The translations under genes and the position numbers were made by a program. 64,000 bases of DNA from Ignavibacteriales bacterium (GTDB lineage Bacteria; Bacteroidota; Ignavibacteria; Ignavibacteriales; Melioribacteraceae): positions 62,001 to 126,000 of the forward strand of contig JAIOYW010000002.1 of the NCBI GenBank assembly GCA_021740915.1, read 5' to 3'. Within the stretch, counting starts at the first letter, position 1; each line of letters begins with the position of its first letter. Shown here piece after piece: positions 6,051 through 24,944 of this stretch. The notes below the pieces were generated by a model. That model searched no databases. It was not told the DNA's origin and saw nothing but the letters and a program-made list of their open reading frames with translations.

Positions 6051-6938
6051 TTAACCAAATTTCAAAATTCCGTCTTTATCCCATAAACCCCAATAAGCGC
6101 CCACATCTCCTTCCTTTTCAATCTTCCAGGTTTCATCAAAACTTGAGAAATAAAAGACGTCAATATTTTCCTGATTTGCCCATGTATAAGTGTCGATAAA
6201 ATAATTGAGTGCATTTTCATAAGACGGCACAGCAGCGCGGTCAGGAGTTCCCAAATTTGGCCAGCCTGTTTCACTAATTATCACCTTTTTACCTTTAGCC
6301 GCCTTTACAGCCAGATAATACATATTTTTCAAATAAGCCAGGGAATGCTCGATTGGGTAACCTTCCCAGAAAGGATAGCAGTTTGCCAATATTACATCAC
6401 ATAGATCACAGATTCGAGGATGATCTGCAAATTCATAATAAGCATCAACGTATCCAACCGGTATATTGGGAAATTCAATTTTAACTCTTTTAATCAGATC
6501 TATTATTTGATCTTCTGTAAGATCATTGCGGAGAAGCACTTCGTTTCCAACAGCTATAATATCAGCATTTCCTTCTTTGGCGATTTTTATGATTCCTTCA
6601 ATTTCCAACTCGTTCTTTTCACTATCATTTCCAAGCCAGGCACCAACAAGAGTTTTTAATCCGTACTTGCGGGCGATACGAGGAATATTTTCATTCCCAT
6701 CAATACAGGAAAATGATCTTACCCATTTTACATAAGGCTGAATAATTTTCATTCTCGTTTCAATCTGATCTTCGCTGATCTGTGAACCGGGGCTTTGATT
6801 TTCAAGGTACGCGCTAAATGAAATTCCATGTAAGCCATGCTGCAATATTCTTAAAAATGCTGAATCTAAATCAGTTCTTTTAAAATGAGAGGTGTCTATA
6901 CCTGACAGAAATTTTTGTTTGGATTCACTACGGGACAT
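6051..6938 (-). CDS. GH17-like beta-1,3-glucan hydrolase/transferase without signal peptide
   Basis: The 295-residue barrel has GH17 motifs: AVGNEV with Glu133 as likely acid/base and ISETGWP with Glu223 as likely nucleophile, plus an FDETWK segment near the end. No signal peptide, lipobox or membrane segment is visible (start MSRSESKQKF), so the enzyme should be cytoplasmic. That fits a role on imported short glucan oligosaccharides, or as a glucanosyltransferase, downstream of the sugar symporter at 8561-10033. The gap to the UspA gene upstream is only eight bases, so the two are co-transcribed. The family call is secure from the motifs; the exact activity is not. Confidence 0.82.
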   Translation of the reverse strand: MSRSESKQKFLSGIDTSHFKRTDLDSAFLRILQHGLHGISFSAYLENQSPGSQISEDQIETRMKIIQPYVKWVRSFSCIDGNENIPRIARKYGLKTLVGAWLGNDSEKNELEIEGIIKIAKEGNADIIAVGNEVLLRNDLTEDQIIDLIKRVKIEFPNIPVGYVDAYYEFADHPRICDLCDVILANCYPFWEGYPIEHSLAYLKNMYYLAVKAAKGKKVIISETGWPNLGTPDRAAVPSYENALNYFIDTYTWANQENIDVFYFSSFDETWKIEKEGDVGAYWGLWDKDGILKFG

Positions 6939-6946
6939 ATTACCTC

Positions 6947-7441
6947 TTAATTTTTTTTATTTACATTATGTATAACTAAAACCGGCAATTTTGACTTATG
7001 TAATACCCGGCTGACTGTACTCCCAATTGCAGTATCCTCAGAAGTTCCTCTCCCGCTGAATCCCATCACAATCAGATCACAGTTCTTTTCCTCGGCGATG
7101 TTTAAAATAATTCTCGCTGGGTTACCCCTTTCAACAAGAATATCAATATCGTTTAATATATCATCGCTGTAAGATGAAGTCATTTTTTCAAGAATTTTTG
7201 TGCGGACGTTATTTGTAAAATCTTTTGCCTCAGTAAATTTTTTATCGATGCTCGGAAGCCTTTCAAGTCCCACATCGAAGGTCAATAGATCAATCAGTTC
7301 TGTGTTCAGAACATAAAGAAAAGTGAGTTTGGCATTGTAATGCTTAGAGATCCCAAGAGCGTGGGAAAATACATCCTGCCAGCTATCTGAAAATTCTGTT
7401 GTGTATAGAATATGTTTGTATGCTATTTCATATGATTCCAT
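6947..7441 (-). CDS. Universal stress protein, UspA family
   Basis: A single UspA domain of 164 residues. It has the N-terminal strand YKHILYTTEFSD and the nucleotide-binding signature near the C-terminus: GFSGRGTSEDTAIGST (G-x2-G-x9-G(S/T) type), followed by VSRVLHKSKLPVLVIH. ATP-binding UspA proteins act as cytoplasmic stress or energy-state sensors. Its place between the sugar-binding protein and a cytoplasmic GH17, with no promoter-sized gap before the GH17, suggests it is made only when glucan genes are expressed. What it senses here is unknown. Confidence 0.9.
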   Translation of the reverse strand: MESYEIAYKHILYTTEFSDSWQDVFSHALGISKHYNAKLTFLYVLNTELIDLLTFDVGLERLPSIDKKFTEAKDFTNNVRTKILEKMTSSYSDDILNDIDILVERGNPARIILNIAEEKNCDLIVMGFSGRGTSEDTAIGSTVSRVLHKSKLPVLVIHNVNKKN

Positions 7442-7495: not shown

Positions 7496-8518
7496 TCACA
7501 TCCCGTAATATTTTTCCGGAATGTCCTGATAGCCCCATGCTTTCAACTGCCGCGACCATCCGCCAAGATTATCGATCGTCACAGGAATGGTGTTAAGCCT
7601 GTTAATCGGATTCACTTTTTTATCCCTATAAATTTTATCGATGACAGTTTCCACTGATACTGTGCCCCACTTAAAGGTAGGCTGCCCAAACAGTACCTGC
7701 ACAATATTTTTTTCCACATATTCCAATTGAACAGGAAGTGCATCAACGGCAACTATTTTAATTCTTCCTGGTTCTACTTTATTCATCAATTCTCTTCCAA
7801 AAGTTGGCCATCCTCCAACCATTGCCCACCCTTTAAGATCTGGATAAAGTTCCTGAACTCTCAGCATTTCTCTGATTGATTCGGTCTCATTTTCGGCATG
7901 ATAATAAACTCCAACCAGCTCAATTTCAGGATACTCAGCAGCAGCTTTCTGAATCCCGCTAACTCTCTCTCTCAAATTCGGAGCGTTGATGTTTCCACCC
8001 AGCACCGCAATTTTGCCCCTCCCGTCGATTAATTCTGCCAATCGCTTCATTACAGATTCGCCCATAGCAATATCATCCGGTCCATAAAATGCAAAGCGTT
8101 TGGACTGAGGTGAATCGCTGTCAAAAGTCATCACAGGAATACCGGCATCAACTGCTTCATTAATTGCTGAAGTTAGGGAATCCTGATCGGAGCATGAGAC
8201 AATAATTGCATCAGTTTTATCTTTGATTGCATTACGAATTCTTCTAACCTGTTCCAGGGCATCTTCAGTTTCAGGCGTATTCCAGTCAATTGTCACATCA
8301 ATTTTCTTGTACTTTTCCGATATCCTTTTCGCCTCTGAAATTGCTCCGTTTTTCGCAGTTAAAAAAACCGGGTTTGCTGAACTCTTGGCGATCATCGTAA
8401 TAACAATTTTTTTCACTCCGGCAGGCTTATCCCCTGTTTCCTGATCTTCGCCGCATCCGTACAAAAAAACCAGAGAGATCAATACCACACTGAAAGAAAT
8501 AATATATTTAATTTTCAT
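7496..8518 (-). CDS. Periplasmic sugar-binding lipoprotein (ribose/galactose-binding type)
   Basis: The 340-residue protein is of the periplasmic-binding-protein type related to RbsB and LacI effector domains. It has a lipobox (FLYGC, Cys22), an N-terminal segment KIVITMIAKSSANPVF, and hinge-type motifs DAIIVSCSDQDS and GIPVMTFDSDSP. Such proteins normally feed sugar to an ABC importer or to a sensor kinase. Neither an ABC permease/ATPase nor a sensor is present nearby. The next gene upstream is a GPH symporter instead. It may present sugar to an importer encoded elsewhere, or act in sensing. The fold is confident and the partner unknown. Confidence 0.85.
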   Translation of the reverse strand: MKIKYIISFSVVLISLVFLYGCGEDQETGDKPAGVKKIVITMIAKSSANPVFLTAKNGAISEAKRISEKYKKIDVTIDWNTPETEDALEQVRRIRNAIKDKTDAIIVSCSDQDSLTSAINEAVDAGIPVMTFDSDSPQSKRFAFYGPDDIAMGESVMKRLAELIDGRGKIAVLGGNINAPNLRERVSGIQKAAAEYPEIELVGVYYHAENETESIREMLRVQELYPDLKGWAMVGGWPTFGRELMNKVEPGRIKIVAVDALPVQLEYVEKNIVQVLFGQPTFKWGTVSVETVIDKIYRDKKVNPINRLNTIPVTIDNLGGWSRQLKAWGYQDIPEKYYGM

Positions 8519-8560: not shown

Positions 8561-10033
8561 CTATGAGTTTTGAATTAATGGATCAACACTAACGGTCTTA
8601 ATGCGCCGTTTTTCCAATTCACTCCTTATTTCATAAGATCTTTCTTCAGTAATCTTATAAGTAGCAACTGCGTAAATGGCTATTAAGGAGGCAATCGCAG
8701 GGATTCCTGCATCAATCAGAATCATCCAGAAGAATGTGCTTGACGACTGAGCACCGCCAAAATCCACCACAAATCCAGTAGCATTTAATAAAAAGCCTGA
8801 AAGCCCAAACGCTAATGCCATGCCGAGTTTCACCATCCACCAATAAATAGATCCGAACATGCCCTCGCGCCTTTCTCCCGTCTCAAGTTCATCAAGATCA
8901 CAAACATCCGCAACCATTGATCCCATAAGCGTAAAAAGAGCACCCATTCCAACAGCAATCAGCGGTGCAGGAAGCAGCACTTTCCAGGGGACAAGTGGAT
9001 CATAGCAAAACCATTTTAAAATACTGCCTATCAACGTCATTGATGTTGCAATAATAAAGGTTTTTCTCTTGCCAATTCTGGAGGATATCCAGGTTACTCC
9101 GACTATTGCTGCCATGGTGGAAAATGTGGTAATTGTTCCGAACAACCCCATGTATTTAGCTCCCTGATCAGTATCGCCGCCAAATACATAAAAGATTGTT
9201 ATGTAAGAACTAAATGCTCCAACGAGCATTATTCCGTTAAACAGAAAAAATGTGCCGGCACAAAGTTTTAAAAATTCCACCCTTTTAATTGTAATGAGCA
9301 ATCCCTTAAAGAAAAGAGCAATATTGGATTTCAGACCGTCCAAAAGTTTTGTTTTGTGTTTCGATTCACTTTCAGGTGCAACAAAACGTTCTTTGCTAAA
9401 AATTGCCGGCATAATACCAACAACAGCAACAAACACCCCTATTATAATGGCAAGTGTTCTCGCTCCCTGAACAGAGTTTGAGAAAAATCTGTCATTTTCC
9501 ATGATTGCATAAAACCAGGGCAGTGAGATCCAGGCGAACTGGCCCATAAAATTCATAACACCCATCAGACGGGTTCGTTCATGATAGTCCGATGTTAGTT
9601 CATATCCGAGTGCGACCCAGGGTGTTGCAAACATTGTATAAAAAAGATAAAATATTAGGGAGCCGATTAGAAAGAACCAAAAGTAGAACATCTCACTATA
9701 GCCTTCGGGTAACTGCCACATTAGTGCAAAAACTAACCCGACAAAGATAGCCCCGAAAAATATATATGGTCTTCGTCTGCCATATTTTGAACGTGTTTTA
9801 TCCGAGATATAGCCCATTATAGGATCTGTCAAGGCATCAGTAAAACGCGGAATTGCCTGAAGCGTGCCAACCAGTGCGGGATTAATCCCCAGACCAACGT
9901 TCAATACGATGGACATATAACCGATAACTCCACCGAGTAAGTTATTGACGATTGCTCCTAATCCGTATGCAAATTTCTGACCGCCGGATATTTTATCGGC
10001 GGGTGCTGTTTGATGAGTGTCTTTTGGGTTCAT
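8561..10033 (-). CDS. GPH-family sugar:cation symporter (MFS fold)
   Basis: A 490-residue, 12-helix inner-membrane transporter of the glycoside-pentoside-hexuronide family (MelB-like). The family signature is visible at about residues 60-95 (PRFTDALTDPIMGYISDKTRSKYGRRRPYI), with a second conserved region at VADVCDLDELETGERREGMF. Members bring di- or oligosaccharides into the cytoplasm with Na+ or H+. Co-orientation with GH16, GH17 and GH30 genes suggests import of laminaribiose or similar glucan fragments. It is the only inner-membrane sugar importer in the visible cluster. Confidence 0.9.
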   Translation of the reverse strand: MNPKDTHQTAPADKISGGQKFAYGLGAIVNNLLGGVIGYMSIVLNVGLGINPALVGTLQAIPRFTDALTDPIMGYISDKTRSKYGRRRPYIFFGAIFVGLVFALMWQLPEGYSEMFYFWFFLIGSLIFYLFYTMFATPWVALGYELTSDYHERTRLMGVMNFMGQFAWISLPWFYAIMENDRFFSNSVQGARTLAIIIGVFVAVVGIMPAIFSKERFVAPESESKHKTKLLDGLKSNIALFFKGLLITIKRVEFLKLCAGTFFLFNGIMLVGAFSSYITIFYVFGGDTDQGAKYMGLFGTITTFSTMAAIVGVTWISSRIGKRKTFIIATSMTLIGSILKWFCYDPLVPWKVLLPAPLIAVGMGALFTLMGSMVADVCDLDELETGERREGMFGSIYWWMVKLGMALAFGLSGFLLNATGFVVDFGGAQSSSTFFWMILIDAGIPAIASLIAIYAVATYKITEERSYEIRSELEKRRIKTVSVDPLIQNS

Positions 10034-10104: not shown

Positions 10105-10923
10105 TTAGGATCCCTTATAAACTCTAACGTAATCAACAATCATACTCTGCGGAAATGAAGTCTGGCTGGTAGGAAACCCGACATAATTTCCCCCTACTGC
10201 AAGATTTAATATGATATAGAAAGGATGATCAAATACCCATTGCCCCGTTAAATCATCCGGTCTTATTTCCTGGTATAAAATATCGTCAACATAAAATCTT
10301 ATATAGTCTTTTCCCCATTCAGCAGCAAATAGATGGAAGTCCACATCAAATCTGTCTTTTTCAAATCCGAAACTTTTTGTAATTCCATTTCCTCCTGAGT
10401 ATCCAGGACCATGAATCGTCCCATGAATCAGATTCGGCTGCTGACCCCTATATTCCATAATGTCAATCTCACCGCATTCCGGCCAGTCAACAGTCTCAAC
10501 ATTTGAGCCGAGGAGCCAGAAAGCCGGCCACAACCCTGGTCCCCAGGGCATTTTAATCCTAGCTTCAAACCTGCCGTAAGTCTGCTCAAATAATCCCTGG
10601 GTTTTTATCCTTGCAGATGTGAACGAGCGCCCCAGGTAGGATTCTTTCCTGGCTGTAATCAAAAGATTTCCACTGCCGTCAAGAGAAACATTTTCCGGAC
10701 GGTCTGTATCGTATTCAAGCTGTGCATTACCCCAGTCTGTTCCAATATCATAAGTCCACTTTAGAGAATCCGGCAATTCCCCAGCGGTTCCTTCAAATTC
10801 ATCCTGCCACACAAGTTGCCAGTTAGGGATCTCCGGTTCATTTGAGTTGTCGCATGAGGGAACAGTTAGAATAATAAGTGCTCCAACAAAAAACATCGAA
10901 ATAATATTTTTAAAAGTGTTCAT
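10105..10923 (-). CDS. GH16 laminarinase lipoprotein
   Basis: Bacterial GH16 endo-beta-1,3-glucanase. The catalytic motif ECGEIDIMEY gives nucleophile Glu152, Asp154 and acid/base Glu157. WPAFWLLG and the C-terminal VDYVRVYK strand complete the fold. A lipobox (TVPSC) follows a short signal, so it is membrane-anchored. I place the start at the ATG at 10923 because a GGGAG sits five bases upstream and belongs to the codons following an in-frame ATG at 10938, which is therefore probably not used. In contrast to the second GH16 (3154-4308) it has few cysteines and the usual bacterial length. It follows the ROK regulator gene after a 51-base gap containing a near-palindrome. Confidence 0.9.
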   Translation of the reverse strand: MNTFKNIISMFFVGALIILTVPSCDNSNEPEIPNWQLVWQDEFEGTAGELPDSLKWTYDIGTDWGNAQLEYDTDRPENVSLDGSGNLLITARKESYLGRSFTSARIKTQGLFEQTYGRFEARIKMPWGPGLWPAFWLLGSNVETVDWPECGEIDIMEYRGQQPNLIHGTIHGPGYSGGNGITKSFGFEKDRFDVDFHLFAAEWGKDYIRFYVDDILYQEIRPDDLTGQWVFDHPFYIILNLAVGGNYVGFPTSQTSFPQSMIVDYVRVYKGS

Positions 10924-10951
10924 ATATTCTCCCTTCACATCTTATTTCTTT

Positions 10952-10974: not shown

Positions 10975-12252
10975 TTAAATAATCACAGCCGGAACAATAT
11001 TCTTCCTCAGAATTTTTGGATCAATAAAAGCCTGTTCTATAGCTAAGGTAGCTGCACCAATAGCAATCCCTTTTGATCCCAATTTTGTAGCCCGTAACTT
11101 TGTTTTGCTAACAGAGCTTACCAGCGCACATGCATCCATAGTTTCCTGGATTGGATTTAATACTAATTCTCCCAGTCTTGATAAACTGCCGCCTATAATT
11201 ATCATATCGGGATTAAGCAAATTGACGAGACTTGTGATCGCACTTGTCAAATATCGGGTGGATTCTTTGACTATTTGAATTGCTAAAGGATCACCCATTA
11301 AAGCGGCATCTTCTATGTCATACACTCCAGGCTCAGAATTAACTAGCGGACTTTCGGGATAGAGGCTTGCAAGCGCGCCCACTCTTTCTTTCAAAGCCCA
11401 GGCAGAAATGACCGTTGCTAAACATCCTCTGAGTCCGCATCCGCATAATCTTCCGTTCGGGTCAATAGGCATATGGCTCATTTCACCGGCAATACCTCTT
11501 GCTCCGCGGTAAACCTTTCCTCCAAAAATATAACCGGCACCAATACCGTTTGATATTTTAATATAGATCAGCTCACTGGCATTTTTTCCTTCACCCCACC
11601 AATGTTCAGCTAAAGCGCCTAAATTTGCGTCATTATCTATATATACAGGAACTCCGTATTTATCGCGTAATCTTTCGAGTCCGCTTTTGCCATGCCAGGC
11701 TGGAATAATGGTCTCGGAGAGGTATTCCGGACGAATAGGATCCACTGGGCTTGGAACTGAAACTCCAATGCTTAGTAACATCTTCGGACCATATTTTAGT
11801 GTAGCCAGACATTCATCACATAATTCATCTATTAACTTCTGCGTTCCTTCAGGATCCTCTCTGACTGCGAATTTTTTTTCCTTCCAGATAAGCAGCTTAC
11901 CACGAAGATTTGTCATGGCCACCGAGACGTGAGTTGCACCAATATCTATTCCTATTATAACTTTTGCATCATCCTGAAACGCGAGAACAATGGGCTTTCT
12001 ACCGCCGCTCGATTCTCCAATACCGACTTCAGCAACAAAACCTGTAGGCAAAAGCTCCTTAATTATTTCTGTTACCGTTGAACGGGATAAATTTAGCTGC
12101 CGGGAGATTTCCGCTCTGGAAATCTGTGACTCACGCCAAATCAATCTAAGCACTGCATCCTTCAGGGAGACTTTGCTCTGTTGATCAAACTCAGTTTCTG
12201 GTGTGCTGTTAATTTTATTCATTTCAGAATATTTTTCCCGATGGTCATTCAA
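10975..12252 (-). CDS. ROK-family transcriptional repressor (NagC/XylR/Mlc type)
   Basis: The 425-residue protein has an N-terminal winged helix-turn-helix (about 30-80, ISRAEISRQLNLSRSTVTEII) and a ROK sugar-binding domain (about 98-400). The ROK zinc site is intact: His260, Cys270, Cys272 and Cys277 in GEMSH...CGCGLRGC. GIDIGATHVS is the phosphate-binding motif. Proteins of this form repress sugar catabolic genes until a sugar ligand binds. Lying between the glycan-binding lipoprotein and GH16, it is the obvious local regulator of the glucan genes. Candidate operators are the palindromes at 17650-17664, 17423-17440 and 10952-10973. Confidence 0.9.
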   Translation of the reverse strand: MNDHREKYSEMNKINSTPETEFDQQSKVSLKDAVLRLIWRESQISRAEISRQLNLSRSTVTEIIKELLPTGFVAEVGIGESSGGRKPIVLAFQDDAKVIIGIDIGATHVSVAMTNLRGKLLIWKEKKFAVREDPEGTQKLIDELCDECLATLKYGPKMLLSIGVSVPSPVDPIRPEYLSETIIPAWHGKSGLERLRDKYGVPVYIDNDANLGALAEHWWGEGKNASELIYIKISNGIGAGYIFGGKVYRGARGIAGEMSHMPIDPNGRLCGCGLRGCLATVISAWALKERVGALASLYPESPLVNSEPGVYDIEDAALMGDPLAIQIVKESTRYLTSAITSLVNLLNPDMIIIGGSLSRLGELVLNPIQETMDACALVSSVSKTKLRATKLGSKGIAIGAATLAIEQAFIDPKILRKNIVPAVII

Positions 12253-12259
12253 TAATCAT

Positions 12260-14194
12260 TTACTTATGAAATAATATATTGTCAACATATACTGTATTTG
12301 GATCCCCGACAATGATCATTTGAGCCAGATGTGATTTCGTAGTCAATGCCGTGAAATTTGTTAATGGAATATCAAACCTAACCCAACTTCCCGTTGCTAA
12401 GGCGGGAGTTGAATTTGCATCGAATGTAAGCTCATGCTCCACATCATCCCCTCCTCCGTATGCTCCATCGGCACCAAAATCAACAAGTTTTATCTTGAAG
12501 GTTGCCGGGAGTGCTGTAGCGTCGGGAGTCCAGATATCCATAAAGAAATTTGTCATCGTTGATGCATCAATTGTCTGGGTCGTAAATTCGATTCCGGCAA
12601 ATACCAGATTAGAATATTTTTTTACATTATTACCCGAAATCTGAACATCTGAAACATCAGCCTGATCCCATGTTGCAGACCAGGTATCCACAGTAACATT
12701 TGAGTATGAATTACTGAACAGGGATATTACATTGCCTGCAGGGAAAGTAGGAGCAGGTGCCGGTGCTGTCGGGACAGAAGGAGTGGTTCCGCCGGTTTTG
12801 TAGAAATAAACATTATCCACGTAAACTGTATTCGGGTCTCCGGATATCACGAGCTGGGCTAAATGTGCTTTTGTTGTAAGTCCTGAAAACGCAGATAAAG
12901 GAACATCGAGCTGTACCCATTGTTCAGTTTTCAGACCGGGATTGGTGTTTGCCGTAAATGTCAGTTCATGGGAAACATCATCGCCCCCATCAAACACACC
13001 ATTAGCGCCGAAATCAACTAAAAGCACCTTAAAAGCTGAAGGCATAGTTGTGGGATCAGGAGTCCAGATATCCATATGAAAACGAGTCATTGCCGAAGCA
13101 TCAATCGTCTGTGACGAAAACTCAATTCCATTAAAGTTAAGATCAGTATAGAGTTTTACTGCATCACCCTCAATCTGAATATCCTGCAGAATAGCGGTTG
13201 AATACAGCCAGCCAGTAGCCCAGGTATCAACAGGAACATTTGTATAAACATCGCTGAATAATGAGATTACATCAGTGGCTGGAATTGTTGGAACAGGAGC
13301 CTTTTCCGGTAGTATTTCTACATTTACAGTTATTGATCCGGCGGCGGCCAATGTACCAAATTTTGCCGTGATTATTGCTGTTCCTAATCCGAGGACAGCG
13401 ATCTGACCATTTCCATTGACAGTGGCAACAGCTTCATCGGAAGAAAAGTATGTGAAATAACCAGGTGATACATCAATTCGCTGGTCAACACCATCAGGCA
13501 TATTAAAAGAAATGTAGGTGCCGCCAATAGTCAGTGTCTGCCCAATTATTCCGGTCGTAGTCTGATTCTGTTTATTTAATATGGCTGGATCGGGATGAGC
13601 GATAGTTCCAAGTTTTTCAAATTTAACTTCGTCAAACCAGATAGTATAACCTGCATTGTTTTCGGGACCCTCAGAATAGAAAAACATCCCTCTTTCCGCA
13701 GTGAACTTTGAAGGATCAGGTATTGGGATAATATATTTTTTCCAGTTTGTGTTAACTGCTAATCCGGAGATTGTCGCTTGGTTCGCAGATAACCCCAAAT
13801 CATTACCGATACCAACTACATCAATTGAGGCTGATTGACTGGCTTTTGCCCAGAATGTCAGTGCATCATAACCGGAGAGGTCTCGGCCTGTACTGGTAAA
13901 ATAAACACCACCTGCATATGCGCCCTGAGGATCTTCATAATCCGGGACGTCAATACGCATAGAGGAGGTTCCACTATATTTTACATCATTATCCACATCA
14001 AACGCAGTAACTTTGGAGCCGCCAAATGCGGCATAATTCAGACCTGAACTGAATCCGTCAATAAAGACCTCGGCAATAACCGGATAAGTCGCAGGCTCTA
14101 AGATCTCAATGTCCCTCTCACAACTCGTAAAGAGAAACGCTGCCATGATTGTGAAGATTGTCAGTGTCGAATAAATAATATTTCGTTTTTTCAT
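12260..14194 (-). CDS. Multi-domain surface glycan-binding lipoprotein
   Basis: The 644-residue protein starts with a lipoprotein signal (lipobox FTSC). An N-terminal carbohydrate-binding-like beta-sandwich follows (about 45-195, RDLSGYDALTFWAKAS... IWFDEVKFEKLG), then a bacterial Ig-like BIG2-type domain (about 215-300, DEAVATVNGNGQIAVLGLGTAIITA). Two tandem copies of the VISLFS/DTW module complete it (about 305-470 and 485-644). No catalytic motif is seen. Being second in the operon, just downstream of the glycosidase-barrel fusion, it looks like the surface glycan-binding protein of the locus, replacing the SusD/SGBP pair of classical Bacteroidota loci. The same module recurs in the T9SS cargo at 537-1919. 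Confidence 0.8.
   Translation of the reverse strand: MKKRNIIYSTLTIFTIMAAFLFTSCERDIEILEPATYPVIAEVFIDGFSSGLNYAAFGGSKVTAFDVDNDVKYSGTSSMRIDVPDYEDPQGAYAGGVYFTSTGRDLSGYDALTFWAKASQSASIDVVGIGNDLGLSANQATISGLAVNTNWKKYIIPIPDPSKFTAERGMFFYSEGPENNAGYTIWFDEVKFEKLGTIAHPDPAILNKQNQTTTGIIGQTLTIGGTYISFNMPDGVDQRIDVSPGYFTYFSSDEAVATVNGNGQIAVLGLGTAIITAKFGTLAAAGSITVNVEILPEKAPVPTIPATDVISLFSDVYTNVPVDTWATGWLYSTAILQDIQIEGDAVKLYTDLNFNGIEFSSQTIDASAMTRFHMDIWTPDPTTMPSAFKVLLVDFGANGVFDGGDDVSHELTFTANTNPGLKTEQWVQLDVPLSAFSGLTTKAHLAQLVISGDPNTVYVDNVYFYKTGGTTPSVPTAPAPAPTFPAGNVISLFSNSYSNVTVDTWSATWDQADVSDVQISGNNVKKYSNLVFAGIEFTTQTIDASTMTNFFMDIWTPDATALPATFKIKLVDFGADGAYGGGDDVEHELTFDANSTPALATGSWVRFDIPLTNFTALTTKSHLAQMIIVGDPNTVYVDNILFHK
12263..12740 (-). 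repeat. Copy 3 (C-terminal) of the VISLFS/DTW module
   Basis: Encodes VISLFSNSY to DPNTVYVDNILFHK at the end of the lipoprotein. It is closer to the copy at 841-1317 than to its own neighbour: both share TWDQAD-type, FKIKLVDFGADG and GGDDVEHELTFDANSTP strings. This suggests exchange between the two genes. Confidence 0.75.
12797..13282 (-). repeat. Copy 2 (middle) of the VISLFS/DTW module
   Basis: Encodes VISLFSDVY to DPNTVYVDNVYFYK in the middle of the lipoprotein, separated from copy 3 by a Pro/Thr/Ala-rich linker. It is the most diverged of the three copies (ATGWLYSTAILQD in place of the WDQAD segment). Confidence 0.75.
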
Positions 14195-14218: not shown

Positions 14219-17200
14219 TTACATACCAAGGTTGAAATGTAAATATGATCGTATTTCCCATTCATTGCCATCTGCAAAACCGGGTGCTTCAGGATCACAA
14301 ACAAGTTCTCCGTTCACATTCAGAATTTGTGTGGGGCAATATCTTGGGGAGTATTTATCAAGAGAGCGCCAGGTTGAAATAATTCCAAGTCTGGTTTGGG
14401 GTAGATTAAACCAATCAGGCATTCCCAATTGGGTAGAGACATCCAATACGAATTGGAGTGGATAAGTCAGGTTAAAATCCCTGTGATAATCATATGGTCC
14501 CCAATCATTCACTTTGGCTTGGGTAATGATCTTTATTTTATTCATTACAAAACGAATATCACCGCCGTATCGGTGAATAAGTCTCGTGTCACTTCCGTTC
14601 GGTTCACCTAATCCAGCATAAAGGTTAGCGATGAAGCCAAAATCACGCCACAATTTTGATACGATTCGGCTATGAACTTCCCATAAGTCACGAGCAGGAG
14701 GCGCACCCGGGAAAGCAAAAATTGTTCTGCCATCAGCTAATATTCCAATTGCTGCATCCCTGGTTGTAGGCTGATGTCTGAAAACTATCCCGCCGCTTAT
14801 TGCAAACCTGGCATCTTCACGTGTATCACTGTCCCAAGCATACATCCAGGTAGCAGGAGTTGGATCATAGGTCACAAGTATTTCACCGGCTGTCGTTTCA
14901 CGATTCCCTCTGACCGCAAAAGGATCGGAAAGTATATTACGAGGTCTGCCAGGTGCCGGAACCGTATTCGGAATAGGTCCTTCAATAGGCTTTTGCCACA
15001 TAAAATTAGGTGCTATCTGGAAATCTCCCATTATTACTGCCAATCCGGTAAGAATACTGTATTGATTTCCGATTCCACTATTCTTCAGTCTCCAGCCAGT
15101 GAAAGTTAGCGATTGATTTACACCGCCATCCGCAACTAATCCCTGCACTCCTCCTTCGGCATACCAGTTCCATCTTCCGCTTGACATAGTAATCTTGAGT
15201 TTACCGCCGAAAGCATCACTTTCTTTTATTTGATCCTGCAGAATCCTGTAATTTCCTTCACTTCCAGCAGCAATCTGGAAAGTTTCACCCTTCTTTGTAC
15301 TTCCTGACCAAATACCCCCAACTTCGAAACCAAATAATCCATATTTGGTGGCAAGGTGTATTGTAGCCCTTCTTGTTGGCGGTAGCGGAACCGCAAAAGA
15401 ACTGACAGTTTCGCCCTGCTCATCAAGATCTTCGTGATAAATCATACTTATTTTGACCGGACCGACATCCCTGCTGTATTTTAACAGGATTGCCGGGTTG
15501 GCCCCCCACCACAATTCCGGCCCAAAAGCGACTTTCAAACCACTGAGCTGTTTTTTTCCAGTTATTTCAAATCCGAGAGGAGCATTTCCATTATACATAT
15601 CGATATTTGGACCATAATTGGCTTCGGGATAGAGTCCAAAGAAGTCGCCCTCATAACCCCAATGGTAGTGACCGGTTCTATAAAAACCATCTAAGTTGAA
15701 CCATGAATCTTCCCATGTAAGACTTGCTCTGTAAACTTTTACCCTGTCGAGACTTTCAACATTTATCCGTTCATCAGGAGTAAGAAGTGTTTGGGGTCGG
15801 CCTCTGTTTTCATAGAATATCTCATCAATTGGATTGGTTGGGATGTGACCGAGAAAATTAATTGCAACTTTTCCTGTAATATTTGCCGAAGGTTGTGCTT
15901 CAAATTCAGCATAGAAAGACTGCTTGTGATCAAAACCCAGGAAAGCCGGATAATTTGTACTACCAGCTACTTTTTTATCAGGTGTTGTAATGCTTTCCCC
16001 GCCTGTGTTATAGGTTTCGAATTCCATTCGTAATCCGCTCAACCGGATCGCACTCAGTGTATTTGTTTTTAGCACTGCTGCATCGCCTCTTGCTTTCAGC
16101 ACATATTCGAGCGGAACCAGTTTATCAAAGTGAGATCTAATGGCTGAAGCATCATATTTCTCATCAAAAGGATTAATTTTAAACGCATCTTTCAGTGCAT
16201 AATAAGCCGCCCTGGGATACAGTTGATACAGACCTTTTGCATCAGTCTGCCCTTTCGCACAAATCCCGAACCACTCTTCATTCATGTTGTTTTCGCCTTC
16301 AACATAGTCCTCAAGATATCCACCATTAGACCATGAGGCATGAGTATCATGTACCCGCAGATTGCTTTCCTGGAGATATTTCCACCATCCATCGCTGAAT
16401 TGAAATGTCATACCGCCGATCGAATTACCGGACTTACTCTTGCCATAAACATTTTCAAATATTTCTTTCCAGTTTCCGAGAAGATATTTTGTCTGCATCA
16501 ACTGATCTTCGCGCATTTCTGCAGCATTAAAGGCATCCGAGCCGAATTCCGTAAACATCACCGGCACACCAAGTTTTTCTTTTACTTTTTCAAAAGCATC
16601 CGTAAATGAAACTCCTCTATAAACGTTTGTACCGAATACGTCAAGTTGTTTGATTTCTTCAGCGATTATATCAATAAAAAGCAGATCACCGTTGCAGATT
16701 GCCACCGGATGTTTGGAATCTGTTTTTTTAATTTCCTGAATTGCCTCATTAAACAGATTATACATATGTCTGGCTCTTACAGATTCCAAAGTCTCACCGA
16801 CCGGAATATCTTCGGTCTCTGAACCACCCCAGAAAAGCCCGTAATTATTTTCATTCCCAAGCAGCCACATCAACAATCCGGGAACATTTCTAAACTCCTC
16901 AACAAGGTCCTTCACCTCAGTCAGAAGTTGAGCTCTCGACGGACTATCGGCGTAATCAGTATTGGATATGTAAACTCCGTCAACTGTTACTCCATAACGC
17001 CCAAATGAGTGGTTCAGGACTGTGTAAATCCCAAAGTTTTTATAAATATACTCTACCCACTTTGGCTGAACACCAGCATAAAGCCTGATCACGTTTACAC
17101 CCATATTCTTCAGCAGTGTCATTTCTCTGTCGAGTGCATTTCTAATCAGGTCATCGTTTTGTGACCAAAGGCTATATGAGTAATTTTCACCTATTGGGAA

Positions 17201-17374
17201 GTAATCCCAGTTCATGCCGATTACCATGAAGTCTTTGCCGTTTACTACCAACTTCGATCCGTTTTGATCGTTTAATACTTTCACACGATCCACTTGTGCA
17301 TAAACTGCTGAAAAGGACAATAAAAATGCAATGATCAGCAGCCTGGATCGAGTTTTAGTTTTGATTAAGGTCAT
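14219..17374 (-). CDS. Exported clan GH-A glycosidase fused to a predicted outer-membrane beta-barrel
   Basis: The 1,051-residue protein has a signal peptide cut near AVYAQ and a TIM-barrel glycosidase domain (about 30-415). It carries the clan GH-A pair Glu175 (LLGNENN) as likely acid/base and Glu276 (FTEFGSD) as likely nucleophile, about 100 residues apart. The overall sequence recalls the GH2 TIM barrel. From about 425 to the end the sequence is built of alternating polar/aromatic strands separated by turns (such as WEDSWFNLDGFYRTGHYHWGYEG), ending EIRSYLHFNLGM. I read this as an outer-membrane barrel. AGGAGG lies five bases before the ATG. It is the first gene after the strong promoter, so it is probably the key outer-membrane component of the glucan locus. 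The barrel call is from pattern, not computed. Confidence 0.75.
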   Translation of the reverse strand: MTLIKTKTRSRLLIIAFLLSFSAVYAQVDRVKVLNDQNGSKLVVNGKDFMVIGMNWDYFPIGENYSYSLWSQNDDLIRNALDREMTLLKNMGVNVIRLYAGVQPKWVEYIYKNFGIYTVLNHSFGRYGVTVDGVYISNTDYADSPSRAQLLTEVKDLVEEFRNVPGLLMWLLGNENNYGLFWGGSETEDIPVGETLESVRARHMYNLFNEAIQEIKKTDSKHPVAICNGDLLFIDIIAEEIKQLDVFGTNVYRGVSFTDAFEKVKEKLGVPVMFTEFGSDAFNAAEMREDQLMQTKYLLGNWKEIFENVYGKSKSGNSIGGMTFQFSDGWWKYLQESNLRVHDTHASWSNGGYLEDYVEGENNMNEEWFGICAKGQTDAKGLYQLYPRAAYYALKDAFKINPFDEKYDASAIRSHFDKLVPLEYVLKARGDAAVLKTNTLSAIRLSGLRMEFETYNTGGESITTPDKKVAGSTNYPAFLGFDHKQSFYAEFEAQPSANITGKVAINFLGHIPTNPIDEIFYENRGRPQTLLTPDERINVESLDRVKVYRASLTWEDSWFNLDGFYRTGHYHWGYEGDFFGLYPEANYGPNIDMYNGNAPLGFEITGKKQLSGLKVAFGPELWWGANPAILLKYSRDVGPVKISMIYHEDLDEQGETVSSFAVPLPPTRRATIHLATKYGLFGFEVGGIWSGSTKKGETFQIAAGSEGNYRILQDQIKESDAFGGKLKITMSSGRWNWYAEGGVQGLVADGGVNQSLTFTGWRLKNSGIGNQYSILTGLAVIMGDFQIAPNFMWQKPIEGPIPNTVPAPGRPRNILSDPFAVRGNRETTAGEILVTYDPTPATWMYAWDSDTREDARFAISGGIVFRHQPTTRDAAIGILADGRTIFAFPGAPPARDLWEVHSRIVSKLWRDFGFIANLYAGLGEPNGSDTRLIHRYGGDIRFVMNKIKIITQAKVNDWGPYDYHRDFNLTYPLQFVLDVSTQLGMPDWFNLPQTRLGIISTWRSLDKYSPRYCPTQILNVNGELVCDPEAPGFADGNEWEIRSYLHFNLGM

Positions 17375-17649: not shown

Positions 17650-17694
17650 GTTCGCTATACGAACAAAGTTACTACTATTATTTAGATTTGTCAA
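17650..17694 (-). promoter_or_regulatory. Promoter of the glucan operon with overlapping palindrome
   Basis: On the minus strand TTGACA (17694-17689) and TAACTTTG (17671-17664) are separated by 17 bases. The second element fits the Bacteroidota TAnnTTTG -7 box exactly. The palindrome GTTCG-TATAG-CGAAC (17664-17650) starts at the last G of the -7 box and would cover the transcription start, the usual place for a repressor site. The transcript would have a leader of about 280 bases before the ATG at 17374. Confidence 0.6.
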
Positions 17695-20633: not shown

Positions 20634-21668
20634 TTATCTGAATTTTATTAATAGAAACATAGTTGCAAGTAAACCGGTAACTGCCAGAAACTTGTTGTAT
20701 TTATTAGTATAAACAACGCTTTCAAGGTCAGATGGGCTGAAGAGACCACTCTCATTTATGCCATTACTTTGAGCAAGTTGTTTAATGTTCAATAAATTTA
20801 TTACGTGAATTCTCCCTGAATATTCCGCGATAAGACCACGGTCATGGTGTCTGCATATAACCTCATCAATTATTCCGTTAGGAATCTGGCTGCTGTGAGC
20901 ACATTTGCCCAAAGCAGTTTCATTCCCGCCTATATTAATTAACAGCGCTATTTTCTCCTCATCAAAAATTTCGCGTCTTATCCTTTTTGCATCTTCAAAA
21001 TCTTTTGGAATTAACATTTTTGAATTTGTTCGTTCAACGGCTAATTCTGCAAGACTTAGAGAATTTTCAAAAAGACCAGCCTTTAAATCATCATCACCCC
21101 CTGGGGTTATTAATCTTGATCGGGAATGAATCCTGCCGGCAGAATAGAGACTGTATTCCATATCAGCCCATGTCAGCAAGGGGTTATTAGCTCCGAATGA
21201 TGAGGCTCCTATGGAACTTACCATAATGACATTATGTCCCAATTTCTCACAGGCAGCTAAGGCGGCAATAGTCAAAGCAGGAAAAGAGCCGGAAGCGATA
21301 ATACCAATTTTTTCTTTATTCCTAATTTTAAGATCACTAATATATTTAACTATCAGAGCAGCAAAGGATGGGTTTAGTGATGATATTTTTGAATCAAGAT
21401 AACCAACGGTAGTTGTAATTTCACTGAAATCTTCCCCAATCAATGACTTTCCAGGAATCTTGTAGTGGGTTGAATTGTGAACTGCACCAGCAAACAACGA
21501 ATCAAGATAACACAATGCTTCACTCTGAGCCTTAACTGCCTCAATAGCTAGAGAATAATATTCCGCCCGAATTTTTTCCCGCCCAAAACTAATCAGGAGA
21601 AACACAATACCTGCAACGAAGAAAGCTGCAACAATAATTTTTTGGTTTTTTCTCAGATCACTTTTCAT
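20634..21668 (-). CDS. pgsW: Poly-gamma-glutamate system protein PgsW-like
   Basis: The 344-residue protein has an N-terminal membrane helix (about 10-30), a large extracytoplasmic domain (SGSFPALTIAALAACEKLGHNVIMVSSIGASSFGANNP) and a C-terminal hydrophobic segment (about 325-343). This form, next to PgsB and PgsC, matches the PgsW-type poly-gamma-glutamate system proteins found where the classical export factor PgsA/CapA is absent. Its start overlaps the pgsC stop by one base. The role in PGA synthesis or export is inferred from that constant linkage; no catalytic site is clear. The IASGSFP and NIGGNETALG segments might form a binding pocket. Confidence 0.78.
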   Translation of the reverse strand: MKSDLRKNQKIIVAAFFVAGIVFLLISFGREKIRAEYYSLAIEAVKAQSEALCYLDSLFAGAVHNSTHYKIPGKSLIGEDFSEITTTVGYLDSKISSLNPSFAALIVKYISDLKIRNKEKIGIIASGSFPALTIAALAACEKLGHNVIMVSSIGASSFGANNPLLTWADMEYSLYSAGRIHSRSRLITPGGDDDLKAGLFENSLSLAELAVERTNSKMLIPKDFEDAKRIRREIFDEEKIALLINIGGNETALGKCAHSSQIPNGIIDEVICRHHDRGLIAEYSGRIHVINLLNIKQLAQSNGINESGLFSPSDLESVVYTNKYNKFLAVTGLLATMFLLIKFR

Positions 21669-22096
21669 CAGAAAATAATCATAGCTATTAGGAATGTCAA
21701 TCCTGAAACAATCGTAATTCCGGATAAAGTAGGAATTATTTTTTGCCTGTAACTCTCATTGGCTATTAAACCGGGAATAATATAACCAATAGAATTTATG
21801 GATGCTATATTCTGAGCAAATTCCACTGATATTCCTGTAAACAATAATTTCACCGATATTCCAAACAGTATTGCAAGCAGCAACCTGCGCCGCCCAAAAA
21901 TAATTAAGTGTGATGCGGCCATTTTAATCATTATAAAAACAAAAATCCCAAAAACCACAGTAATTAATATCTCAACCGGTCTGTAAATATTCATAGCAAA
22001 ATAAGCAGGAGTTACGACACCACCAGGAGAAATTCCAGTCATCTCATAAAAGATGAAACCAATTACAAGACCTATTGCGAAATATTCGTAAGTCAA
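21668..22096 (-). CDS. pgsC: Poly-gamma-glutamate synthase membrane subunit PgsC/CapC
   Basis: The 142-residue, highly hydrophobic protein has about four or five membrane helices, the size usual for PgsC/CapC (about 150). It begins MTYEYFAIGLVIGFIFYEMTGISPGGVVTPAY, where the TGISPGGVVTPAY segment is typical of the family. PgsC pairs with PgsB in the membrane to polymerise glutamate through gamma-amide bonds. The start overlaps the pgsB end by four bases (ATGA), indicating translational coupling. Confidence 0.88.
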   Translation of the reverse strand: MTYEYFAIGLVIGFIFYEMTGISPGGVVTPAYFAMNIYRPVEILITVVFGIFVFIMIKMAASHLIIFGRRRLLLAILFGISVKLLFTGISVEFAQNIASINSIGYIIPGLIANESYRQKIIPTLSGITIVSGLTFLIAMIIF

Positions 22097-23199
22097 ATCG
22101 CCATCATCTCCCTGGTCAGTCTTTCACCTGCACCTTTATAATTACCAAGTCCAATTATCTCAAGTTGTTTTTCAGTTTTAATATAGTCCTGAAGTATTGC
22201 AGTAAATGGAACTGATGATTCTTTCTGAATCGTAATTTTTTCTCCAAATTTTTTCTTCAATATTCTGTATCCATATTCTTTATGTGTACCAAATATAAGA
22301 ATACTGTCAATATCAGGGTGCTCTTTGATCCAATCAATAAATTCAAGCGTTCTTAAAGGTCTGTCCGCTCTGGTATTAAATAATAAAACTCTTTTCCCGG
22401 ACTTTTGTCTCGTAAGATTAACTTTCGGGAGCAAGAAATCTAATGATATGCAATCATTGGCAGAAAAAGCCGGATACATATCAATATTACACCCGCCTAT
22501 CGTTTTTGTAATCTTTAATGATTCTTTCGGTTTAGATATTGCTTTCAAAGAATCATTATCAATTCCAAGCATCTTCAGCGTCTTATGTGCCAGGTTCAAA
22601 TTACTTTCCAGGTACTCATCGGTTCGGCTATCTGAATAAATCAGCCTGCCGCTGTCCATTCCCCGTTCAAGGCAGAATTTATAGAATTCATGATCGGAGG
22701 TGATTACTCTGCTTTTATGAGGAATAGCTTCGAAAAAAGCATTCATAATAGCAGAAATATCTCCGCCAAATTCCTCCTGATGGTCGTTTCGGACATTAGT
22801 TACAATATAAATCTCCGGTTCAATAATTCTTGCCTCCTGAATCATCAATTCAGGAGATACAGACATATTCTCAATTGCAAGGAATTCTGAATTGAAACGA
22901 ACTGCCCTGAATAAAACTTTTATCTGTTCACTAATCCTTGCCGGACCAATTCTTTTAATAAGCTGATTAGTGCCATCCGAATAAAATATTCTTGGTTCAT
23001 CGCCTGTTATTTTGGCAATACCGGTTAAACCATCACGTATGTTGGAGAGGAGTAATCGTGTGACCGAAGATTTGCCCCTCGTCCCATTAACTAATACTCT
23101 TTTGCTGATCTTCTTTTGCAGTTTTTTGATAAGTGTTTTTTCCGCAAAGAATAAAAGCAGCGTGAGAAATGTCAAAGCGAGAAAAAATTCCGGTCTCAT
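22093..23199 (-). CDS. pgsB: Poly-gamma-glutamate synthase ATP-dependent ligase PgsB/CapB
   Basis: The 368-residue Mur-ligase-like enzyme has an N-terminal membrane helix (about 5-20) and a P-loop NGTRGKSSVTR (residues 38-48), as in PgsB/CapB (B. subtilis protein about 390). Further ligase segments include YIVTNVRNDHQEEFG (ATP/Mg site) and LLFNTRADRPLRT. It catalyses ATP-dependent addition of glutamate to the growing gamma-linked chain on the cytoplasmic face, with PgsC. It overlaps its neighbours on both sides by four bases. All key motifs look intact, so the synthase is probably active. Confidence 0.9.
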   Translation of the reverse strand: MRPEFFLALTFLTLLLFFAEKTLIKKLQKKISKRVLVNGTRGKSSVTRLLLSNIRDGLTGIAKITGDEPRIFYSDGTNQLIKRIGPARISEQIKVLFRAVRFNSEFLAIENMSVSPELMIQEARIIEPEIYIVTNVRNDHQEEFGGDISAIMNAFFEAIPHKSRVITSDHEFYKFCLERGMDSGRLIYSDSRTDEYLESNLNLAHKTLKMLGIDNDSLKAISKPKESLKITKTIGGCNIDMYPAFSANDCISLDFLLPKVNLTRQKSGKRVLLFNTRADRPLRTLEFIDWIKEHPDIDSILIFGTHKEYGYRILKKKFGEKITIQKESSVPFTAILQDYIKTEKQLEIIGLGNYKGAGERLTREMMAI

Positions 23200-24941
23200 T
23201 CAACCGCTTTTGCAGTGCCTCCCCTACGGGGATCGGCGCTGCCAAAAAATGTATTTGAATTCATGTCCAATTCTACAATATGAACACCTCCAAAAAACTT
23301 ATCATATTCCGGATACAATTGGATATTATGCCCCATTGCTTTCAATGTGCTGTAAATATCTTCCGTGAAACGATTTTCGGCGTGTATAAATTCTTCGTTC
23401 TTTCTGCAATAAAACCGGGGTGCGTCATTCGCTTCCTGAATATTCATCCCGAAATCCAGAATGTTGAGAGTCACTTCAATAATAGCAGAAACAATCCTTC
23501 CGGCACCAGGAGAGCCGATTGCAATCGCACCATTATTTTTAGTAAGAATGATTGTCGGACTGATAGCACTCGCAGGTTGTTTTGCTTTATCAATAATATT
23601 TGGCTTATAACTCCTGGAAAAGTTAGTCATAATCGAATTGAGCAGGACTCCATCAACAGTTAATCCTGAACCAAAAAAAGTACCGAGTGTCTGAGTAAGA
23701 GATACTATATTGCCATCTTTATCGATAACCGAAAGATGTGAAGTATGTCCTCCCGAATGATCCGGTGAGTTAAGATATTCCAGATATGCCATGGTGCTGT
23801 TCTCATCGGTCGATAGTTCGCCGGCTTCAGAATCCTGCAAATATTCGAAAGGATTTCCGGTTTCGGTGTCCTTGTAGTTTTCGGGAGACATCTTTTCAGG
23901 ATTGATCATCAGCGATCTGCTTCTGCCATAAGGCTTCGATATTATTCCTTCTACCGGAATATCGCTGAAATTCGGGTCGCCAAGGAATTCTGATCTGTCA
24001 GTGTACATCCGTTTAAGAGTTTCTGCGATCAGGTGAAAAGATTTGGCTGATTTAACAGGTGAGCCCAAAGCCGGAATATCAAAATTCTCAAGAATATTCA
24101 AAGATTCAATTATGAAAGCTCCTGACTGGGGAATGTCTGCTGAAATTATTTTATTCCCACGATAATCTGAAATTAACGGATTCGAAATTTCGGTCCGGAA
24201 ATTCCGGAAATCATCCTTCGTCAGATACCCGCCCCGGCTATTCACTTCTGTAATGATGTGGTCGGCAATCACACTTTCATAAAAGGCGGATCTACCACCT
24301 GAGGCAATCTGCCGTAAAGTTTTAGCCAGATCGCCTTGGATAAGCAGCTCACCTTCCATTCTTGGAAATCCCTCGTTGAAGTAAATTTCAGCGCTTGAAG
24401 GATACTTTGAAACCAGTTCAAAATTATCAAGGATTATCTGCGCCACTATATTATCGAGGGGAAAACCATTTTCAGCCATTTCCGCTGAAGGAAGAATTAA
24501 TTCTGCAAGCGGTTTTGATCCGAATTTCTCAACTGCTGTTATAAGTCCGTCAACCTGCCCAGGAACACAAACAACATTTTGATCATTTTTTGATCCAAGC
24601 GATCGGTATTGTTTTACCTCCTCTTTGCTTCCCGATTTAGGATAAAAGTTGAGATAATAAAATTTATCCTCAGCCTTAATATAAATAAGCATTCCGCCGC
24701 CGCCGCCAAGTCCTGAAGCATCCGGTTCCACAACACCAAGCATAAATGAAGCTGCAACTGCGGCATCGATTGCGTTCCCGCCATTCTGAAGGATTTTAAC
24801 AGCAATATCAGTTGCATAGGGATTGGCAGTCGCAGCCATCCCTCCCTTTCCAACAACTGGATCACCTGAAGCAAGAATAATTACCGGGAGTAAAAAGACC
24901 AGAACATATGAGAAATATTTCCTTTTCATATCTGCCTGCAT
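23196..24941 (-). CDS. ggt: Gamma-glutamyltransferase, exported (CapD/GGT family)
   Basis: The 581-residue Ntn-hydrolase precursor has a signal peptide (to about ILASGD). The N-terminal large subunit contains NGGNAIDAAVAASFMLGVVEPDASGLGGGGGML. The autocleavage nucleophile is Thr400 in GGHTSHLSVIDKDGN, followed by small-subunit motifs TLGTFFGSG and GSPGAGRI. GGT cleaves gamma-glutamyl bonds, and the relative CapD anchors or trims PGA capsule. Four-base overlap with pgsB makes PGA the likely substrate: chain-end hydrolysis, length control or anchoring. Ordinary periplasmic glutathione breakdown is the alternative. Processing residues are present, so the enzyme should mature. Confidence 0.92.
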   Translation of the reverse strand: MQADMKRKYFSYVLVFLLPVIILASGDPVVGKGGMAATANPYATDIAVKILQNGGNAIDAAVAASFMLGVVEPDASGLGGGGGMLIYIKAEDKFYYLNFYPKSGSKEEVKQYRSLGSKNDQNVVCVPGQVDGLITAVEKFGSKPLAELILPSAEMAENGFPLDNIVAQIILDNFELVSKYPSSAEIYFNEGFPRMEGELLIQGDLAKTLRQIASGGRSAFYESVIADHIITEVNSRGGYLTKDDFRNFRTEISNPLISDYRGNKIISADIPQSGAFIIESLNILENFDIPALGSPVKSAKSFHLIAETLKRMYTDRSEFLGDPNFSDIPVEGIISKPYGRSRSLMINPEKMSPENYKDTETGNPFEYLQDSEAGELSTDENSTMAYLEYLNSPDHSGGHTSHLSVIDKDGNIVSLTQTLGTFFGSGLTVDGVLLNSIMTNFSRSYKPNIIDKAKQPASAISPTIILTKNNGAIAIGSPGAGRIVSAIIEVTLNILDFGMNIQEANDAPRFYCRKNEEFIHAENRFTEDIYSTLKAMGHNIQLYPEYDKFFGGVHIVELDMNSNTFFGSADPRRGGTAKAVE

Positions 24942-24944
24942 TAA

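Follow-up and report, generated by a model that had tools for sequence, protein, structure and literature searches.

How could glucan enter a bacterium whose glucan locus holds no SusC/SusD pair? The question is raised by a single gene at positions 14219–17374, minus strand, of the window, by which we mean the whole 64,000-nucleotide stretch of Ignavibacteriales DNA analyzed here. Its open reading frame (ORF) begins with ATG and specifies 1,051 amino acids (aa), in which the ORF itself, Pfam and structure models delineate a GH158-like glycosidase (GH, glycoside hydrolase family) fused to an outer-membrane beta-barrel. An earlier note, made from the letters of the window, had proposed that one chain joins a clan GH-A glycosidase to an outer-membrane barrel, and Pfam, Foldseek and the barrel model now agree on this point. 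With a probability of about 0.58, we read the protein as an outer-membrane glucan-uptake protein, in which a 26-strand channel carries its own GH158-like beta-1,3-glucanase at the periplasmic mouth. The architecture is real and conserved, and the mechanism is plausible and testable.

The chain begins with a signal peptide of the SAVYA-Q type (residues 1–26, 17297–17374, minus strand as for all parts of the gene), recognized by eye and from a modeled helix at residues 8–25. It has no lipobox, and a lipobox pattern was found in only one of 107 fusion-type ORFs. A clan GH-A TIM barrel follows at residues 28–415 (16130–17293), as indicated by Pfam, sequence profile, Foldseek and VIA. A helix at residues 421–436 (16067–16114), seen in both alignment and model and containing the invariant residues A428, R429 and D431, links the enzyme to a 26-strand outer-membrane beta-barrel at residues 443–1049 (14228–16048), which was assigned from the model, from structural matches and from the alternation of its strands. 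The full-length model reached a predicted local distance difference test score (pLDDT) of 76 and a predicted template modeling score (pTM) of 0.60. When it was submitted to Foldseek, GH158 endo-laminarinases ranked first (6pal, E 1.8e-13, then 9oro), and outer-membrane barrels (OccAB3, BtuB types, MOMP and a chain of the Mtr complex) appeared from rank 33 onward.

The fusion is not peculiar to this genome. A scan of genome contigs gave at least 586 candidate stretches, at least 569 of them with a relative, and the best 80 loci were kept, with 58–78% identity over the best segment (L-numbers below denote loci, and G-numbers the genomes of an even draw). A closed fusion ORF of 1,017–1,116 aa containing both parts is present in 78 of the 80; L021 and L058, in which the match reaches the contig end with no closed ORF, were left out of the counts that follow. 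The alignments and the 73-sequence set comprise the window and 72 of the 78 loci, L014, L026, L053, L055, L060 and L077 having been left out by choice. The 73 tree rows belong to Bacteroidota (60), Ignavibacteriota (4), no assigned group (3) and, with one row each, Calditrichota, Zixibacteria, Gemmatimonadota, Rhodothermota, Fidelibacterota and an Acidobacteriota-labeled bin. The fusion of that last bin (L018) nests among those of Saprospiraceae, and a mis-binned contig is likely. The window fusion groups with Ignavibacteriota, its nearest relative being L002 at 78%. Among named species, the fusion was found in Flavobacterium terrisoli, F. lotistagni, F. agri, F. silvaticum and F. degerlachei as well as in Cloacibacterium rupense and Halpernia humi, and two Maribacter bins (L059 and L070) also carry it. 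When the 73 sequences are compared in pairs, the distances in the enzyme half and those in the barrel half show a correlation of 0.67.

We also drew 296 genomes evenly from the phylum. Matches to the fusion at E 0.001 or better were obtained in 53 of them, namely 28 near full length (the window and G204 counted), two broken, three with the enzyme half alone and 20 distant. The barrel profile matched 30 of the 296 genomes, and in none of these 30 did a barrel occur without the enzyme; G119 and G235 hold broken copies, and in G204 the gene is split between contigs. The broken copies (L144 in G119 and L145 in G235) are interrupted by in-frame stops. Removing the window and G204, where the contig ends within the gene, and adding L144 and L145 left 28 evenly drawn loci, chosen because they match, and both halves are intact in 26 of these. 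The lone enzyme halves of G104, G123 and G242 are 54–57% identical to that of the window. Barrel-less enzyme halves lie at L112:8707–10062, L113:3565–4911 (minus strand) and L114:8668–10008, and have lipoprotein-like starts as judged by eye.

Pfam placed Glyco_hydro_2_C at residues 40–297 of the enzyme half (E 5e-7; 29.6 bits, the cut-off being 21), and the top Foldseek and VIA matches are GH-A type enzymes, which together put this half in clan GH-A. GH2 proper was considered and rejected. In GH2 enzymes, sugar-binding and Ig-like domains precede the TIM barrel; here the TIM barrel comes directly after the signal peptide, and Pfam gives only Glyco_hydro_2_C and a sub-threshold GH72. The 50 VIA matches listed for the enzyme half (Z 24.7–26.8) include GH157, GH158, GH2 glucuronidases and GH5, and because VIA matches within 1 Z count as tied, Z cannot single out GH158; what points to that family is Foldseek, together with the sequence profile and the residues of the active site. 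Searched on its own against PDB sequences, the protein gave one weak match, 6pal (E 0.0087); the 73-sequence profile reached E 6.4e-6 for 6pal and E 0.0023 for 9oro, in each case a distant similarity over part of the domain. GH158 is thus the best PDB family for the profile, at E-values too weak to settle CAZy family membership. In the profile alignment, the GNE and TEFG motifs of the family pair with GNE and TEWG of the GH158 enzyme 6pal. The glutamate pair named in the earlier note proved to be invariant in all 73 aligned sequences: E175 (16850–16852), the predicted acid/base, is aligned with the GNE of GH158 and is preceded by the equally invariant N174, and E276 (16547–16549), the predicted nucleophile, is aligned with the TEWG. 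BuGH158 lost its activity when N136, E137 or E220 was mutated (PMC7157763). BuGH158 (6pal) and GH158(Pro) (9oro) are the nearest solved relatives of the enzyme half, with the catalytic N-E and E aligned, and unlike the fusion they have no outer-membrane barrel. The enzyme half is closest to GH158 endo-beta-1,3-glucanases, this resemblance predicts a glucanase activity, and the substrate is very likely beta-1,3-glucan.

For the last ~600 residues, Pfam and NCBIfam offered no family. Since the VIA matches of the full model were all taken by the enzyme half, the barrel was modeled and searched alone. Residues 418–1051 yielded a model with a pLDDT of 80.2, a pTM of 0.78 and 26 long strands, and the globular beta-sandwich that the earlier note had named as the contrary outcome did not appear. 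The top Foldseek matches of this model are outer-membrane receptors and porins, and all 50 VIA matches listed are outer-membrane beta-barrels (Z 12.7–16.0, 219–377 residues aligned). The best of these are a BenF-like porin (Z 16.0, root-mean-square deviation 3.6, 249 residues aligned) and AlgE (Z 15.9, 4.6, 279), and maltoporin is also among the 50. No match listed spans the whole 634 residues, nor do the matches listed favor any one barrel family. Kinship with known 26-strand barrels of the GfcD or MtrB type was considered through 6r2q_B, a chain of the Mtr complex, which at Foldseek E 2.5e-7 and TM 0.36 does not outscore the other barrels. The strands alternate in hydrophobicity with a score of 2.31 against 1.43 ± 0.20 in 2,000 within-strand shuffles, of which the largest reached 2.19, with little alternation in strands 1 and 4 (dH 0.01 and 0.66). 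The strands of this half are amphipathic and even in number, its inner turns are short and its outer loops long, the last strand (1036–1049) lies at the end of the 1,051-residue chain, and a signal peptide stands upstream. It is almost certainly an outer-membrane barrel, as the earlier note had foreseen. At E 0.1, Pfam found neither Plug nor CarboxypepD_reg in the fusion, the place of these domains being occupied by the GH domain, and the protein was not assigned to SusC or the TonB-dependent receptors.

The loops of the barrel bear on where the enzyme sits. Their mean length is 20.2 residues after odd strands and 4.8 after even strands. Barrels of this kind usually have long loops outside and short turns in the periplasm, and by that rule both ends of the barrel, and hence the enzyme, are placed in the periplasm, which we regard as the probable location. 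The glucan would then be cut upon arrival and not ahead of entry. The earlier note had suggested that an enzyme tethered to its own pore cuts glucan at the point of entry and passes oligosaccharides inward; the tethering to a barrel stands, and the cutting is moved by the loop pattern to the periplasmic side, after entry. Conservation was examined with the strand faces assigned by hydrophobicity. Mean column entropy was 0.82 for lumen-facing and 1.38 for lipid-facing positions (Mann-Whitney p 6e-9). In ordinary porins the outer loops are the most variable part; here the predicted outer loops 567–599, 620–626, 745–770 and 958–970 are near the best conserved of all (entropy 0.34, 0.17, 0.53 and 0.15) and are rich in aromatic and acidic residues. 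In the model, such loops may form a sugar-binding mouth or constriction, and the near-invariance of the lumen and of some outer loops makes a specific channel the somewhat favored interpretation.

The surroundings of the gene are those of a glucan locus. On the same strand follow an SGBP-like lipoprotein (SGBP, surface glycan-binding protein; 12260–14194), with sub-cut-off Pfam matches to Big_2 here and to carbohydrate-binding modules (CBM30/CBM11) in a relative; a ROK-family regulator (10975–12252; Pfam, NCBIfam); a GH16 lipoprotein, a predicted surface endo-glucanase (10105–10938; Pfam, lipobox by eye); and a GPH-type inner-membrane sugar symporter (8561–10033; Pfam, NCBIfam). Beyond these lie a periplasmic sugar-binding protein (Peripla_BP_4; 7496–8518), a universal stress protein (Usp; 6947–7441), a GH17 protein (6051–6938) whose type has no lipobox in any of its 28 members, a GH30 protein (4336–6027), a GH16-like protein with no Pfam match (3154–4308; PDB phmmer 3wdu, E 3e-9), a second GH17 protein slightly under the cut-off (27.7 bits, cut-off 28.2; 2022–3131) and, as the last of the same-strand run within the window, a protein with a type IX secretion system (T9SS) sorting tail (537–1919). 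Past the left end of the window the run continues with another T9SS-tail protein and then a GH149 phosphorylase (C31:56726–60109); the family was recognized from 6hq6, a beta-1,3-oligosaccharide phosphorylase matched at E 0. At L155:2843–18488, which covers this continuation in the same genome, these two genes are followed on the same strand by a T9SS-tail protein with a CBM9-like part, a LacI regulator, a GH94 phosphorylase, a further T9SS-tail protein and a TonB-dependent receptor. On the other side of the fusion, at 20634–26622 of the window, we noted a poly-gamma-glutamate system protein, a PgsB-like ligase, a gamma-glutamyltranspeptidase, DUF6305 and an AstE/AspA-like gene.

The earlier note had suggested looking for the same fusion beside GH16, GH17 and GH30 genes, and it recurs there in relatives. 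Neighbors were counted in flanks of ~10 kb for the best-matching loci and 8 kb for the drawn loci, and since the flanks stop at contig ends the counts are lower bounds. Among the 26 intact drawn loci, they comprise SGBP-like proteins (25), GH16 (25), GH149 (20), GH17 (16), GPH (5) and GH30 (4); for the 78 best-matching loci the corresponding numbers are 67, 66, 42, 53, 39 and 31. In 36 of the 78, the fusion is accompanied by a regulator that shows Y_Y_Y signals along with LuxR-type ones; in the one copy scanned, neither reached its Pfam cut-off. A lipobox was found in 66 of 106 SGBP-like ORFs and 64 of 96 GH16 ORFs, with an acidic mean net of 1.64 and 1.72 at positions +2 to +7, and in 31 of 64 GH17 and 14 of 35 GH30 ORFs, with −0.39 and −0.93; the SGBP-like and GH16 values are closer than those of GH17 and GH30 to the values of three SusD ORFs (2.5 and 3.0). 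Acidic residues after the lipobox mark surface lipoproteins in Bacteroidota, and the SGBP-like binder and the GH16 cutter are therefore predicted at the cell surface. Two loci encode a GPH symporter fused to a GH3 beta-glucosidase (L005:1391–4711, 1,107 aa, and L006:12414–15746, 1,111 aa, both on the minus strand), presumably a second transporter–enzyme fusion in such loci, at the inner membrane.

The proposal that the fusion is the first gene of its locus held up as well: a 634-bp gap lies upstream of it, and promoter-like and operator-like elements found there recur in relatives. The promoter-like element, read from the sequence, consists of TTGACA, a 17-bp spacer and TAACTTTG (17664–17694, minus strand), the last of which we take to be a −7 element of the Bacteroidota type. 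An operator-like palindrome, CTTTGTTCG-N5-CGAAC (17650–17668, minus strand), overlaps it. The longer form of the palindrome, CTTTGTTCG-N5-CGAAC(A)AAG, has a single mismatch-free occurrence in the genome, and with one mismatch allowed a reversed-pattern control equals the pattern in number of matches. Within the window, the core with one mismatch gave two matches where chance would give 0.83, and two were also reached in 24 of 100 shuffles. Since such window statistics are no proof by themselves, the argument is recurrence at one place across phyla. The core GTTCG-N5-CGAAC occurs without mismatch in 13 of 155 loci, in L045 elsewhere and in the other 12 at the head of the fusion gene: L001 (the window), L002–L007, L016, L083/L121 and L084/L122, the last two pairs being two places each counted twice. 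Its positions are L002:9665, L003:9711, L004:8972, L005:9493, L006:7561 and 20481, L007:4228, L016:9853 (within an extended ORF start), L121:8104 and L122:7940, and in L006 the palindrome is also found before the SGBP-like gene. The mismatch-free core is absent from L120 (the 75% relative in G066), L008, L027, L072 and L073. The ROK regulator of the locus is the likely binder of this candidate operator.

On the preferred reading, uptake would run as follows. The SGBP-like and GH16 lipoproteins, to which the role of surface binder and cutter falls once the tethered enzyme is placed in the periplasm, would bind beta-1,3-glucan and cut it coarsely at the cell surface. Glucan chains would enter through the conserved lumen of the barrel and be shortened by the tethered GH158-like enzyme on arrival in the periplasm, and the removal of product would sustain an inward gradient without TonB. 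The GPH symporter would carry short oligosaccharides into the cytoplasm, where the GH149 phosphorylase and other enzymes would complete their breakdown. More tentatively, and at a level where doubt prevails, the fusion might represent a separate class of outer-membrane glycan importer. Such an importer would be a single chain whose 26-strand channel is specific for glucan and draws its power from hydrolysis at the exit, independently of TonB; it would be of old standing in Bacteroidota and sister phyla and would work without SusC/SusD or, in some cases, beside it.

Several results weigh against an uptake channel of this kind. The pTM of 0.60 means that the relative placing of enzyme and barrel is not given by the full-length model. 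An excess of entropy on the lipid face (1.38 against 0.82) is to some degree expected in any outer-membrane barrel, other predicted outer loops are variable (461–479, entropy 1.80; 716–721, 1.67; 1006–1035, 1.47), and the conserved ones are partly modeled at pLDDT <50. SusC/SusD, sought by BLAST with four reference pairs, occur near the fusion in 3 of the 26 drawn and 1 of the 78 best-matching loci. The own genome yields 37 SusC-profile matches below the cut-off, mostly over the N-terminal part, and the TonB-dependent receptor that Pfam identifies past GH149 and GH94 shares the strand of the locus. Of the barrel-less enzyme halves, L113, which starts at a contig end, and L114 have no SusC/SusD match nearby. 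In published work, GH149-bearing laminarin polysaccharide utilization loci (PULs) of Formosa contain TonB receptors and SusD, with SusC/SusD induced (PMC6246565), and Maribacter strains induce SusC/SusD on laminarin (PMC11345257).

Much of this would fit a barrel that serves only as an anchor, tethering a periplasmic glucanase while glucan enters by a TonB-dependent receptor or a general porin. The loci carrying both systems, the receptors in the own genome, including the same-strand one beyond the locus, and the induction of SusC/SusD in laminarin users speak for this explanation, which we consider unlikely. Anchoring does not call for 26 strands, and the barrel-less relatives appear by eye to have lipoprotein-like starts; nor does a mere anchor explain the conservation of lumen and outer loops. 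The own genome returned no SusD match at all and no SusC match above the cut-off, and the claim of a locus lacking SusC/SusD stands for this genome. Strict replacement of SusC/SusD by the fusion was also considered, and was dropped on the count of loci carrying both. Pfam scans of the unclustered ORFs of the 78 loci (72 mid-sized and 30 of the 37 large ones, the other seven large ones being scanned separately) detected SusD together with a TonB plug in L011 alone, among the matches listed, where a two-member family at comparable E-values would have figured as well. As to the receptor beyond GH94, the run downstream of the fusion in G066, G051 and G255 reaches GH149, and BLAST found no counterpart of the receptor there, unmatched ORFs not being Pfam-scanned; we do not count it in the core of the locus, to which it may nevertheless belong. 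L112 is an instructive converse that fits uptake by the barrel: here the barrel-less, lipoprotein-like enzyme half comes directly after SusC, SusD and GH16 (BLAST to the L011 pair, which was identified by Pfam). That barrel loss goes with SusC/SusD is true of this one of the three barrel-less cases only, and the idea was abandoned.

A different role for the barrel, which we think rather improbable, is autotransporter-like display, in which it would thread the enzyme to the surface with helix 421–436 left in the pore, uptake occurring elsewhere. An enzyme placed before a C-terminal barrel with an intervening helix does resemble the esterase autotransporter EstA. Classical autotransporters have 12 strands, against 26 predicted strands and ~610 residues here, no autotransporter family of Pfam or NCBIfam matches the fusion at E 0.1, and lumen and outer loops are conserved beyond what display alone would seem to require. 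The description of the related BuGH158 as a cell-surface enzyme (PMC7157763) counts in its favor. Export and trimming of a self-made glucan, by a fused counterpart of PgaA/PgaB, is very improbable: one of the top structural matches is indeed an exporter, AlgE (Z 15.9, deviation 4.6, 279 residues aligned), yet the recurrent neighbors are catabolic (GH16, GH17, GH30, GH149, GPH symporter, SGBP-like), and since no glycosyltransferase was found among the recurrent neighbor types scanned with Pfam, we set this explanation aside. Nothing was found in favor of two genes having been joined by an error of assembly or annotation. This is refuted by 78 of the 80 loci, where the ORF is closed and of full length at 58–78% identity, and by the half-to-half correlation of 0.67.

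Among the matches listed from the open-licence PubMed Central literature, with subscription journals and bioRxiv outside its scope, no fusion of a glycoside hydrolase to an outer-membrane barrel is described. The GfcD barrel has 26 strands. It was reportedly modeled for capsule export (PMC11494523); it shares with the fusion the link to a polysaccharide and differs, in a comparison by description only, in serving export and in having no enzyme half. PgaA and the GH-bearing PgaB likewise set a glycan-cutting enzyme beside an outer-membrane channel, as two proteins that export a self-made polymer (PMC9384988, PMC5933820). The beta-1,3-glucan locus of Bacteroides uniformis, as presented in PMC7157763, has an outer-membrane barrel, surface binders, GH16, GH158 and the substrate class in common with the loci described here; it uses a TonB-dependent transporter with a SusD partner, and its glucanases are separate proteins. 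Closest in concept is FORMB_24740 of Formosa, a fusion of a major facilitator superfamily (MFS) transporter to GH17 that is called common in marine Flavobacteriia and, to its authors' knowledge, not described in other bacteria (PMC6246565). According to the same source, its single chain unites a transporter with a GH active on laminarin, within a laminarin locus, a layout that the fusion reported here is predicted to share; unlike the latter it consists of a 12-helix MFS part and GH17, at the inner membrane by our reading. The architecture can be seen as the idea of a transporter–CAZyme (carbohydrate-active enzyme) fusion moved to the outer membrane, undescribed in the literature searched. GH149 has been reported in Bacteroidetes CAZyme clusters without susCD pairs (PMC5827456). 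The laminarin PULs of Muricauda, many of which begin with a LuxR gene, have upstream of GH17, GH30 and MFS a "GH2 beta-glycosidase", GH16 and either GH149 or GH3 (PMC13188888); the neighbors are those found here, and the gene is described as a GH2 enzyme only. As this gene order fits our loci, the Muricauda gene is very probably the same gene, and the fusion would then have been seen already and named after its GH part. The words "porin" and "outer membrane" do not occur in the main text of PMC13188888.

Glucan uptake in Bacteroidota and their relatives is usually inferred from SusC/SusD genes. Should the fusion prove to be a channel that brings its own glucanase, many clusters lacking SusC/SusD would be complete uptake systems, overlooked by present annotation since the name of the gene reflects only the GH part. 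The fusion would, moreover, offer a testable case of transport driven by the cutting of its cargo, and the occurrence of the fusion in named species puts such a test within reach. The protein could represent a new route of uptake for glucans such as those of algae.

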